Shown piece by piece: positions 2,062 to 5,882 of a DNA stretch of 10,505 bases. Source of the DNA: Chitinophagaceae bacterium (GTDB lineage: Bacteria; Bacteroidota; Bacteroidia; Chitinophagales; Chitinophagaceae); NCBI GenBank assembly GCA_019747455.1, contig JAIEQT010000175.1:1-10505 (forward strand), written 5' to 3'. A program made the translations under genes and the position numbers. Below the pieces are notes generated by a model. That model did no database searches and was not told the origin of the DNA. It saw only the letters and a program-made list of their open reading frames with translations. The first letter of the stretch is position 1, and each line of letters starts with the position of its first letter.

Positions 2062-2187
2062 TTAGTGTTTCGGACAACCGCAATATTTAGTTTTGTTCGA
2101 CTTCTGGAAAATACCACAACCCGAACTTGCCATGGTAATGCCCATAAATAACAGCAAAACCATAATTTGGTTTATTTTCAACCTCAT
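2062..2187 (-). CDS. Small predicted lipoprotein (41 aa)
   Basis: A short frame of 41 residues starting with ATG at 2185-2187. The N-terminus MRLKINQ is followed by a hydrophobic segment (IMVLLLFMGITMA) and a lipobox-like SSGC at residues 21-24, so the protein is probably exported, cleaved before Cys24 and lipid-anchored. The mature peptide would be only 18 residues, containing two further cysteines in YCGC and ending in CPKH. Very small lipoproteins are common in Bacteroidota. The stop lies 2 nt before the ATG of the 81-residue gene, suggesting a two-gene operon. On the other side, 21 bp separate its start from the divergent glycosyltransferase start. The function is unknown. The main doubt is its length; the ordered signal-peptide structure speaks for it. 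Confidence 0.6.
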   Translation of the reverse strand: MRLKINQIMVLLLFMGITMASSGCGIFQKSNKTKYCGCPKH

Positions 2188-2195
2188 ATTGATAC

Positions 2196-2200
2196 TAAGG
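2196..2200 (+). promoter_or_regulatory. Shine-Dalgarno-like TAAGG supporting TTG start at 2209
   Basis: TAAGG lies 8 nt upstream of TTG 2209. It is the clearest ribosome-binding-like motif near this gene and the main reason for choosing 2209 over the upstream TTG at 2167. Confidence 0.4.
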
Positions 2201-2208
2201 TAAATAAA

Positions 2209-3366
2209 TTGCAGAAAAAATTCACGCATTTAACAGTTTTAGTGGCACCTCTCGATTGGGGGCTTGGACATACAACCCGCTGTATACCTATTATCAATAG
2301 TTTATTAGCACAAGGCTGTAAGGTTATATTGGCGGGCGAAAGAGCCCAAACCACTTTATTTGAACGTGAATTTCCGCAAATTGAGATAGTAGCTTTAAAG
2401 GGATATCGTATTCAATATGCCAAAAAAGGGTATTTATTTTCCCTAAAATTAGCCTTACAAATTCCCAGTATTGTCAAAGTAATACGATTTGAGCATAAAT
2501 GGCTGAGGCAGGTTGTTATAGATAAGAAAGTTGATCTTGTTATTTCAGATAATCGTTACGGATTATACCATAGTAACATTCCTACTATCATTATTACCCA
2601 TCAGTTACAACTCCATCTAGGCAATAGAAGTATAGAAAAAATCACTCAGTTTTTTTTATACAAATGGATTAACAGATTTACAAGTTGCTGGGTGCCCGAT
2701 ATGGTTGATGGCATTGCCGGTAAATTATCTCATCCGGATATTTTACCTCAAATACCAGCTACCTATATCAATTTATTATCACGCTTTAATGAGATAGATA
2801 CAACAACAAAATATAAATACTGCTTTTTGATTTCAGGACCCGAACCACAAAGAACGATTTTTGAGAAAAAAGTTTTTGAGTTAGTTGCCGATTTACAAGA
2901 AGAAGTTGTAGTTGTGAGAGGCTTGCCTAATAGGTTTGATACAAGTTACGAGATTCGAGATTCGAGTTGTTATGAGAATGAGTATGATGCCCGCAACCCG
3001 CAACCCGCATCTCGCAACTCGCATCTCATATACCCACATCTTCCCACCAAACAACTAGCCGAACTCGTTCAGCAAAGTGAATATATTATTTGTAGAGGTG
3101 GTTATACTTCTTTGATGGAATTGCTCGTTTTGCGAAAGAAATTGATAGTAGTGCCAACACCCGGACAAACAGAGCAAGAATATTTAGCACAAACATTGAT
3201 GCAACAAAAACAGGTTTATGCTACAACACAAAATACTTTTGATAAACACACGCTCGTAGCAGCAAGTTCTTTTAATTATTCATTCAAGCAACTGGCTGTG
3301 TTTAAGCAAGAAGACGTCGTGGGCCTATTATCGGCTATTTACGATAATAATAAAATATCTTTGTAG
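2209..3366 (+). CDS. MurG-like GT-B glycosyltransferase with in-frame repeat insertion
   Basis: A 385-residue protein with the two-domain layout of GT-B glycosyltransferases related to MurG. The N-terminal domain opens with VLVAPLDWGLGHTTRC, a glycine-rich loop after the first strand followed by His, as in MurG-type enzymes. The C-terminal domain has CRGGYTSLMELL and VVPTPGQTEQEYLAQ, the region that binds the nucleotide-sugar donor in this family. The donor, acceptor and pathway cannot be told. No ATG exists near the start; TTG 2209 gives MQKKFTHLTVLVAP, close to the first strand, and has TAAGG 8 nt upstream. A TTG at 2167 would overlap the divergent lipoprotein gene. About 28 residues (roughly 245-272) come from a palindromic heptamer element that interrupts the link between VVRGLP and YPHLPTKQLAEL. 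The permease gene follows after 2 nt. Confidence 0.85.
   Translation: MQKKFTHLTVLVAPLDWGLGHTTRCIPIINSLLAQGCKVILAGERAQTTLFEREFPQIEIVALKGYRIQYAKKGYLFSLKLALQIPSIVKVIRFEHKWLRQVVIDKKVDLVISDNRYGLYHSNIPTIIITHQLQLHLGNRSIEKITQFFLYKWINRFTSCWVPDMVDGIAGKLSHPDILPQIPATYINLLSRFNEIDTTTKYKYCFLISGPEPQRTIFEKKVFELVADLQEEVVVVRGLPNRFDTSYEIRDSSCYENEYDARNPQPASRNSHLIYPHLPTKQLAELVQQSEYIICRGGYTSLMELLVLRKKLIVVPTPGQTEQEYLAQTLMQQKQVYATTQNTFDKHTLVAASSFNYSFKQLAVFKQEDVVGLLSAIYDNNKISL
2946..3031 (+). repeat. Palindromic heptamer element 1, inside the glycosyltransferase gene
   Basis: Tandem 7-bp units in inverted orientation. The left arm has three units fitting WTNCGAG at 2946-2966 and decayed copies to about 2982. A short centre follows. 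The right arm has five units that are the reverse complement of WTGCGRG at 2990-3024 and a decayed unit to 3031. Left and right arms can pair imperfectly into a long hairpin. The element is read in frame and encodes EIRDSS from the left arm and RNPQPASRNS from the right arm. The right arm is much richer in G+C than the surrounding gene. A related element is at 5403-5485. Confidence 0.85.
3356..3363 (+). promoter_or_regulatory. Probable -7 box of the EamA permease gene
   Basis: TATCTTTG is an exact match to TAnnTTTG. It lies in the last codons of the glycosyltransferase gene and ends 5 nt before the permease ATG, so the permease could have its own, nearly leaderless transcript in addition to read-through from upstream. 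No good -33 TTG is visible. Confidence 0.5.
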
Positions 3367-4758: not shown

Positions 4759-4780
4759 CAAAATGCCCTGTACATTTGTA
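4756..4780. repeat. Overlapping inverted repeats between sixA-like gene and mnmH
   Basis: The 35-bp divergent intergenic region contains GTACA (4756-4760) and TGTAC (4769-4773) with an 8-bp spacer, overlapping a second pair, TACAAA (4757-4762) and TTTGTA (4775-4780). It coincides with both candidate -7 boxes, so it may be an operator or may simply result from two facing promoters. Confidence 0.4.
4771..4778 (+). promoter_or_regulatory. Probable -7 box of mnmH
   Basis: TACATTTG is an exact match to TAnnTTTG and ends 3 nt before the GTG start at 4782. If transcription starts a few nucleotides downstream, as expected for this box, the mRNA would be leaderless or nearly so. No clear -33 TTG is present. 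Confidence 0.5.
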
Positions 4781-4781
4781 T

Positions 4782-5882
4782 GTGGCTATTACGAAATTAC
4801 ATATCGATGAGTTTTTGAAATTAGCATCAGCACACCCTGTGTTGGATGTAAGGAGTCCCGGAGAGTTCGAACACGCCCATATACCCGGAGCATACTCGCT
4901 CCCACTTTTTACGGATGAAGAAAGAAAAATTGTTGGCACGGCCTATAAAAAGGAGAGTAAGGAGAAAGCAATAAAAATTGGACTGAAATATTTTGGAAAG
5001 AAAATGGTGAAGATGGTGGAAGAAGTGGAGAAGATTGAAGCGTCAATGGGTAGTTCTGAAAGAAGTAAAACTATTTTGGTACATTGTTGGCGGGGAGGTA
5101 TGCGTAGCGCCGGTGTGGCCTGGCTGTTAGATCTGTATGGGTTTAAAGTATATTCATTAGTTGGTGGGTATAAAGCATATAGAAAATGGGTGCTGGCGCA
5201 ATTTCAAAAAGATTATCCTTTTATTATCATTGGTGGCTATACCGGTAGTGGAAAAACAGAAGTGTTAGCAGCACTAGCGGCTAAGGGAGCAACAATTATA
5301 GACCTCGAATCGATTGCTTCCCATAAAGGGTCGGCTTTTGGTAATTTGGGTATGCCTAAGCAGCCAACCCAAGAGCAGTTTGAGAATAATTTAGCAAATA
5401 AGTTGCGGGATTCGATTTTCGATTTTCGAGATACGGGATACGAGTTACTAGACCTAAACCGCAACCCGCAACCCGCAACCCGTATCTATATCGAAGACGA
5501 AAGCCAACGTATAGGCGAGGTGAATATTCCCGGTAGTTTGTTTAATACCATGCGTAGCAAACCGGTTTTGTTTTTAGATATTCCCTTTGAAGAACGATTG
5601 CTGCATATTATCAATAGTTATGGTAAATATGACCAAGAGAAATTGCTCAACGCTATTTTGCGAATTCAAAAAAAATTAGGAGGCTTAGAAACAAAGAATA
5701 CTGTAAATTATTTGCTAGAAAAAGATTTATATAATTGTTTCGCTATTCTATTAAAATACTATGATAAATTTTATTTAAATGGTCTTTTCCGTAGAGAAAA
5801 CCCGGAAATGCAAATTCGAAAGATTCCTTGCTTTTCAACAAATGCAGAAGATAATGCTGCCGGTGTTATAGCAGCTATTTAA
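4782..5882 (+). CDS. mnmH: tRNA 2-selenouridine synthase
   Basis: A 366-residue enzyme (MnmH, also SelU/YbbB) that replaces the sulfur of 2-thiouridine by selenium at the wobble position of tRNAs for Lys, Glu and Gln, using selenophosphate. The N-terminal half is a rhodanese domain: HPVLDVRSPGEFEHAHIPGA (about 18-37) and the active-site loop VHCWRGGMRS with Cys at about 102. The second half carries a P-loop, GYTGSGKT (about 152-159), followed by DLESIASHKGSAFG and later EDESQRIGEVNIP, both typical of the family. The start is GTG 4782 (MAITKLHIDE), as in relatives; a TTG at 4776 would lie in the -7 box. Residues about 208-234 come from a palindromic heptamer element inserted between QFENNLANK and IYIEDES. 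The selenophosphate synthetase gene is not in this window. The 3' end overlaps the convergent transporter gene by 8 bp. Confidence 0.93.
   Translation: MAITKLHIDEFLKLASAHPVLDVRSPGEFEHAHIPGAYSLPLFTDEERKIVGTAYKKESKEKAIKIGLKYFGKKMVKMVEEVEKIEASMGSSERSKTILVHCWRGGMRSAGVAWLLDLYGFKVYSLVGGYKAYRKWVLAQFQKDYPFIIIGGYTGSGKTEVLAALAAKGATIIDLESIASHKGSAFGNLGMPKQPTQEQFENNLANKLRDSIFDFRDTGYELLDLNRNPQPATRIYIEDESQRIGEVNIPGSLFNTMRSKPVLFLDIPFEERLLHIINSYGKYDQEKLLNAILRIQKKLGGLETKNTVNYLLEKDLYNCFAILLKYYDKFYLNGLFRRENPEMQIRKIPCFSTNAEDNAAGVIAAI
5403..5485 (+). repeat. Palindromic heptamer element 2, inside mnmH
   Basis: The left arm has seven consecutive 7-bp units at 5403-5451, mostly fitting WTNCGRK (for example TTGCGGG, ATACGGG, ATACGAG). 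A 6-bp centre follows (5452-5457). The right arm at 5458-5485 has four units, reverse complements of TTGCGGG and ATACGGG. GATACGGG at 5430-5437 and CCCGTATC at 5479-5486 are an exact 8-bp inverted pair. In the mnmH frame it encodes RDSIFDFRDTGYE from the left arm and RNPQPATR from the right arm, with no stop. 18 of 27 bases at 5459-5485 are G or C, a sharp contrast with the AT-rich gene around it. It is clearly related to the element at 2946-3031. Confidence 0.87.

Follow-up and report, generated by a model that had tools for sequence, protein, structure and literature searches.

How has mnmH, the gene for tRNA 2-selenouridine synthase, come to carry within its reading frame an array of degenerate seven-base units arranged in two opposed arms? 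The question is raised by a stretch of 10,505 nucleotides from the draft genome of a Chitinophagaceae bacterium (the whole stretch is called the window below), in which a sister element lies in a glycosyltransferase gene. We hold with moderate confidence that the mnmH array belongs to a dispersed family of degenerate heptamer arrays found at sites where sequence hardly matters, that it replaced the ordinary linker of 13–24 residues and now encodes the linker in frame, and that it was written by a process with a seven-base step. Bacteria often carry heptamer repeats, which lack an explanation and of which most descriptions concern intergenic copies; if such arrays routinely rewrite, in frame, the loops of conserved enzymes, proteins gain linkers from them.

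The array in mnmH

The features of the locus and of the sister element are as follows.

4776..5882, + strand: mnmH (tRNA 2-selenouridine synthase), host gene; NCBIfam match MnmH, 368-aa protein
5397..5492, + strand: MnmH linker, codons 208–239, almost wholly array-encoded
5405..5446, + strand: left (G-strand) arm, six DCGRGWT-type units, with the partial unit AAGTT ahead at 5400–5404
5447..5455, no strand: spacer sequence separating the arms
5456..5487, - strand: right, inverted arm, four units and one partial
2167..3366, + strand: glycosyltransferase gene, host of the sister element; Glyco_tran_28_C, below the TIGR00661 cut-off
2941..2968, + strand: left arm of the sister element
2988..3036, - strand: right, inverted arm of the sister element

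The left arm in mnmH is made of the units GCGGGAT, TCGATTT (twice), TCGAGAT, ACGGGAT and ACGAGTT. A preliminary description of this DNA had placed the array at 5403–5485, and the sequence there reads as described, save that the seven left units it counted are six full ones and the partial AAGTT. The four inverted right units are present, with a partial one in addition, and so are the exact 8-bp inverted pair (GATACGGG at 5430 and CCCGTATC at 5479, each occurring once in the window) and the similar peptides RNPQPATR in MnmH and RNPQPASR in the glycosyltransferase element. If up to one mismatch per unit is tolerated, the array contains runs of six and four units; shuffling the codon order of mnmH 2000 times gave no run longer than two, and a run of two arose in 18 shuffles for one strand and in 16 for the other. 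The element has a GC content of 49%, against 38% in the remainder of the gene. The reading frame stays open across the array, giving the full 368-residue protein. Its mechanical start is TTG at 4776, and the start is perhaps GTG at 4782, because most aligned homologues begin with MA, many of them with MAITKL or similar.

From FENxLA to EDESQRIG this MnmH has 32 residues, whereas 28 of 29 congeners have 13–24; the expectation that ordinary MnmH has a short linker is thus borne out except in one congener (L033), which has 37. This array sequence is found in the linker of none of the 29, so it is not a conserved insertion in MnmH. Homologues were also drawn from a search of 5.8 billion proteins; among the best 120 of the 8000 listed, the 112 that could be anchored (eight were left out) have 15 to 55 residues from the FEN motif to EDES, compared with 35 in this protein. 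Within the same 112, linker peptides encoded by the DCGRGWT word occur, apart from the protein itself, in a single more distant homologue (P0005, 69% identical).

MnmH was modelled with AlphaFold2 (26 sequences, mean pLDDT 83); in the model, the array-encoded residues 217–232 have pLDDT below 50 and are flanked by a helix (199–214) and a strand (237–240); a second loop, near residues 91–98, likewise lies between helix and strand. No solved structure covering the linker was found, the two PDB matches corresponding to the N-terminal rhodanese-like part. The enzyme is presumably indifferent to the array-encoded linker.

A dispersed family of arrays

Among the 390 units of the last model round, positions 2, 3, 5 and 7 of DCGRGWT are invariant at 87–96%, while positions 1, 4 and 6 vary. 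A two-unit pattern has 183 matches in the organism's own draft genome (2.81 Mb, 76.6% complete), against one for the reversed control, and 76 model arms score at least 20, against three in reversed sequence. In a set of 100 genomes, this one included, 60 congeners have 0–7 two-unit matches (their controls 0–6), two species of another family in the same order have 192 (G056) and 106, and the remaining 37 have 0–12.

For the anatomy of the elements we took all listed contigs with matches together with all contigs from C576 up, a set of 99 contigs including the window (948,285 bases), inside which all 183 matches lie. It holds 59 elements, or 58 once a weak match (L093:6844, two units, score 18.5) is dropped. 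Eleven of the 58 lie in frame within open reading frames (ORFs), mostly those of conserved proteins, and are read from either strand; on contigs fetched regardless of content, the window excluded, the share is 5 of 25. Two further elements were excluded from the in-gene count: one precedes a likely later start codon (L071), and the other lies in a frame of 117 codons (L130). The preliminary description had argued from two genes for a dispersed DNA element and against a protein domain, and had proposed that copies in coding and intergenic DNA be counted genome-wide; these figures uphold its argument, the arrays being present throughout the genome in unrelated genes.

A family search or a PDB match put a name to five hosts: MnmH, the glycosyltransferase, an N-acetylornithine-type carbamoyltransferase, methionyl-tRNA synthetase (with the array between its catalytic and C-terminal parts) and an RsmB/NOL1-like methyltransferase. 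Five more are putative, by resemblance: a pseudouridine synthase (L063), a binding protein (L069), an amidohydrolase (L110), an FAD oxidoreductase (L085) and a dihydrolipoamide acyltransferase (L122). The eleventh in-gene element is in L079.

The DCGRGWT word was also seen in viral contigs, 55 stretches of which (L341–L395) contain a perfect four-unit array of it.

Insertion or replacement

The preliminary description took the mnmH array for an in-frame insertion. We measured net gain as the number of residues between fixed anchors in the organism's own protein minus that in each congener. The gain is +20, +20 and +20 residues in the glycosyltransferase (array of 96 nt), +8, +8 and +8 in the amidohydrolase (35 nt), +2, +2 and -1 in the binding protein (49 nt), +3, +1, 0 and 0 in the carbamoyltransferase, and 0, +1, -2 and -4 in methionyl-tRNA synthetase. 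At six of seven in-gene sites the gain is smaller than the array; in the RsmB-like gene (+4, +15 and +14; 35 nt) it is larger than the array in two of the three comparisons with congeners. Because the array makes up almost the whole MnmH linker and the gain falls short of the array at six of the seven sites, clean insertion is doubtful, and this part of the earlier account is not supported. Insertion followed by trimming is possible; no near-identical empty site was found. A 7-residue gain of the carbamoyltransferase over the Bacteroides structure 1js1 had suggested an insertion of three units, a reading that was rejected since four congeners differ by 0–3 residues.

Array turnover is not fast, as judged from a 98% identical homologue of the glycosyltransferase in which none of eight residue differences falls within the array.

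Heptamer-encodable peptides at the same loops

For each period we listed every 6-residue peptide that a perfect repeat with that period could encode, and homologues were scanned for these peptides without recourse to DNA. In MnmH, among the best 120 of the 8000 homologues listed, period-7 peptides occur at 37 of 2162 positions of the linker, 31 of 1378 of the second loop and 0 of 33170 in the rest of the protein. The corresponding counts are 3, 0 and 127 for period 8, and 0, 11 and 82 for period 9; the second loop, which was picked after the alignment had been seen, also shows a period-9 excess (11/1378 against 82/33170). The array-bearing loop of the glycosyltransferase has period-7 peptides at 38 of 1846 positions, compared with 15 of 41785 elsewhere (period 8: 3 and 33), and that of the carbamoyltransferase at 66 of 1509, compared with 14 of 36773 (period 8: 1 and 5).

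With each distinct loop counted once, and with 14 of the 120 MnmH homologues dropped because their anchors were missing, the period-7 matches number 37, 26, 36 and 51 in the MnmH linker, the second MnmH loop, the glycosyltransferase and the carbamoyltransferase, respectively. Shuffling residues within each loop gave means of 0.65, 0.42, 0.59 and 0.58, with a maximum of 4 in 500 shuffles; summed over the four loops, there are 150 matches against 2.2. Octamer peptides are not enriched in the same loops (3, 0, 3 and 1, against shuffled values of 2.73, 1.6, 2.55 and 2.42). Four of the 37 MnmH linker matches (P0001) and one of the 38 glycosyltransferase matches (P0121) come from the organism's own protein or a near copy, and as the rows are related, the counts are not independent events.

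Relatives seem, on the evidence of their protein sequences, to use other heptamer words at the same loops, which goes beyond the preliminary description. Two 79% identical MnmH proteins (P0002 and P0003), for instance, have the linker LPTTHYPL, which needs a heptamer other than DCGRGWT. The enrichment in the homologues of three array-hosting enzymes is new, and it extends to peptides encodable by perfect heptamer repeats of many words. It suggests that heptamer repeats keep overwriting tolerant parts of proteins. Period-7 peptides are a very small part of all peptides, and if the rewriting of loops is routine, it can be searched for with them in protein databases without DNA. Among titles and abstracts, in a search outside which most subscription journals lie, we found none on heptamer arrays rewriting the loops of conserved enzymes.

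Arm architecture and rival mechanisms

When units are read as arrows, the 59 elements comprise 21 '><', 21 '<', 14 '>', and one each of '><<', '>>' and '<<<'; '<>' does not occur. By a simpler definition of a pair, DCGRGWT arms are arranged as 16 '><' and 0 '<>' in this genome, and as 4 and 0 in 200 kb of G056. A second word, RGWCVDT, forms 7 '><' and 0 '<>', and a third, AGATTNN, 0 '><' and 10 '<>'. Polarity is thus fixed for each of the three words with enough pairs, which simple slippage does not account for. Two arms from one element resemble each other no more than arms from different elements do (likeness 0.422 and 0.449, respectively), and inverted duplication of one arm was rejected on that ground. 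Units at distances 1, 2, 3 and 4 are identical in 16, 25, 19 and 22% of cases (12% expected), and 19 three-unit runs are common to different elements (4.6 expected); these like units and shared runs support slippage and copying. A partial unit of 4–5 bases opens 49 of 67 arms, and 41 of 67 finish one base past a full unit, a base that is mostly matchable by chance.

A selfish palindromic element like those of Rickettsia, in which a mobile master copy inserts in frame, would explain dispersal into unrelated genes, arms that fold (RNA z-scores of -1.8 to -8.3 in the five elements folded) and the net gain in the RsmB-like gene. One pair of elements, L078:4258-4366 and L078:5119-5234, lying 0.86 kb apart, also has a common spacer and many common arm units, with differing flanks, and looks as if one had been copied from the other. 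A master copy is nevertheless not supported by the 22 two-arm elements, because no five-unit run is common to them and no common spacer could be seen by eye outside the L078 pair. Furthermore, 35 of the 59 elements are single-arm, the shortfall in net gain at six of the seven in-gene sites compared counts against it, and each Rickettsia element encodes a conserved peptide according to the accessible part of PMC10969869, which the heptamer arrays do not. We regard this explanation as unlikely.

Less likely again is a REP-like repeat served by a Y1 transposase of the IS200 or RAYT type. Three array-rich genomes have 2, 7 and 6 Y1_Tnp matches and nine of 11 congeners searched have none. In G056 an IS200-like Y1 gene (L340, G056:C2:177600-179200) sits between convergent arms of the DCGRGWT family at 434–472 and 1231–1289, and in the organism's own genome another (L334) lies beside an 8-mer array. 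However, the first of these is the one Y1 gene out of seven inspected to lie between DCGRGWT arms, five others lack period-7 and period-8 segments in the sequence taken around them, another genome (G055) has six Y1 matches yet no DCGRGWT word, and arms differ in unit order. Some involvement of a Y1 transposase is possible.

A maintained functional element, be it a G-quadruplex, a terminator or a protein-binding hairpin, has a slightly smaller probability still. Consistent with it, arms most often have four units (28 of 79 strong arms; five units in 21), and folding is stronger than in shuffled sequence for three intergenic pairs (z -2.6 to -8.3). Placement also counts in its favour: by crude ORF calls made without a gene finder, arms outside ORFs have a median distance to the nearest ORF of 12 nt at their outer end (at most 20 nt in 36 of 53) and of 71 nt at their inner end (at most 20 nt in 7 of 55), the outer end being the nearer in 34 of the 46 arms with both distances, and GGGAATC repeats are placed similarly, as far as the accessible text of PMC4692102 goes. 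Against it, congeners do without the arrays. GGG is present in 210 of 421 units, and at least four GGG units are kept in 17 of 79 arms only, on which basis the G-quadruplex was rejected as a conserved feature.

Telomerase-like templated addition of G-strand repeats at broken 3' ends, followed by end joining, would fit convergent polarity, independent arms and phased ends, and one RVT_1 match was found in an array-rich genome (G093), but it is highly improbable given that RVT_1 has no match in the organism's own genome (76.6% complete) or in G056 (97% complete, 192 array matches), a lack that by itself weakens such writing and led us to reject it, that AGATTNN is oppositely polarised, and that Ku is found in none of 21 genomes by a search whose control was positive in Bacillus subtilis, so that Ku-dependent end joining was rejected as well.

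The candidate mechanisms are narrowed by the strict polarity of each word, by arms that are not copies of each other, by the lack of Ku in the 21 genomes and by that of a reverse transcriptase match in G056. Under the reading we prefer, in which arrays with the unit DCGRGWT, mostly four or five units to an arm and with paired arms convergent, come to occupy tolerant sites, these sites would be the few bases beside gene boundaries and the loops of proteins. Replication or repair, advancing in steps of seven bases, would write and rewrite the arrays by slippage and by template switching between arrays that have words in common, tolerant sites would be overwritten again and again, and selection would merely purge the arrays that break a frame or a function. 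A wider proposal, which we put forward tentatively and think somewhat less probable than not, is that in Chitinophagaceae such writing has repeatedly supplied new protein sequence: fixed, tolerant loops of conserved enzymes would receive in-frame arrays, to be replaced by other words as the dictionary of the lineage changes, through overwriting and not through point mutation.

Comparison with known heptamer repeats

The class of convergent heptamer repeats, which the preliminary description did not consider, is already described from Xanthomonas (GGGAATC, or (GGGANTN)n) and Nostoc (GGGGA(C/T)T), where the repeats are G-rich (Rehm et al. 2015, PMC4692102). In the part of that paper available, Xanthomonas has 183–186 loci per genome, most commonly of four units, with 70 and 75 convergent pairs; the GGGAATC repeats have the nearer ORF on their 5' side and are mostly intergenic, no function is reported for them, and 83% of Xcc repeats recur in Xac. 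Judged by that text, the architecture of our arrays matches that of the Xanthomonas and Nostoc repeats minus the conserved G-tracts: a degenerate heptamer unit, a mode of four units, convergent pairs and an outer side near an ORF. Our arrays differ in that their G-tract is not conserved, several words occur side by side, about a fifth of the copies (11/58) are in frame in ORFs, and congeners are without arrays.

TAACTGA repeats of Beggiatoaceae, Cyanobacteria and some Bacteroidetes (MacGregor 2015, PMC4679880) resemble the present arrays, on what is accessible of that paper, in being heptamers near start codons with a patchy spread, mixed words in some genomes and some copies inside ORFs. They differ in having one exact word, in being almost all direct repeats in the main genome considered, and in that their in-ORF copies lie mainly at the ends of proteins. 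The same source cites a survey by Mrazek et al. (2007) in which heptamers are the commonest long repeat in most genomes, and heptamer satellites in Chloroflexus together with general counts appear in the accessible portions of PMC6749651 and PMC4060949.

The P6b stem of the Nostoc trnL intron is a degenerate heptanucleotide stem with the words TDNGATT and NNTGAGT (PMC4476775, in the portion available). It has degenerate words in paired arms, as here, and its word class has been replaced repeatedly at one site; for the loops considered here, differing words at a fixed site are implied by loop peptides alone. P6b differs in being a single RNA stem-loop, neither genome-wide nor protein-coding. 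Rickettsia palindromic elements share with our arrays the in-frame presence of repeat families in unrelated genes (metabolic ones in Rickettsia), and differ, on the available text of PMC10969869, in being about 150 bp long with a conserved peptide, whereas the heptamer arrays have only the unit consensus in common.

Other repeat words and periodic segments

Further heptamer words occur on the same contigs, among them AAGATTG, AATAGTC and AACCTAT, along with some octamers. Periodic segments number 111 at lag 7, 67 at lag 14 and 20 at lag 8, and 1–13 at each of the other lags from 4 to 16, when array-bearing contigs are included; on contigs chosen regardless of content there are 82, 54 and 20 per Mb at lags 7, 14 and 8, respectively. 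In 200 kb of G056, none of 42 lag-7 segments lies within an ORF of at least 200 aa, which counts against the reading preferred here. A common grammar of RGWY+NNN for all words, seen by eye, was rejected because it fails for the oppositely polarised AGATTNN.

Arrays of GGTCAAT (L110:5095-5154) and GTCAATC (L098:6920-6967) were seen in frame in open frames of 361 and 513 codons, respectively. Period-7 segments of several words, 4–18 per stretch of 7–8 kb, were also seen in other phyla (L208 and L160, Chloroflexaceae; L169, Leptolyngbya; L252, Thermodesulfovibrionales; L257, Pseudoalteromonas). A long period-9 region at L277:7112-10580, perhaps a collagen-like gene, is the source of the lag-9 signal in the sample of its genome (G017).
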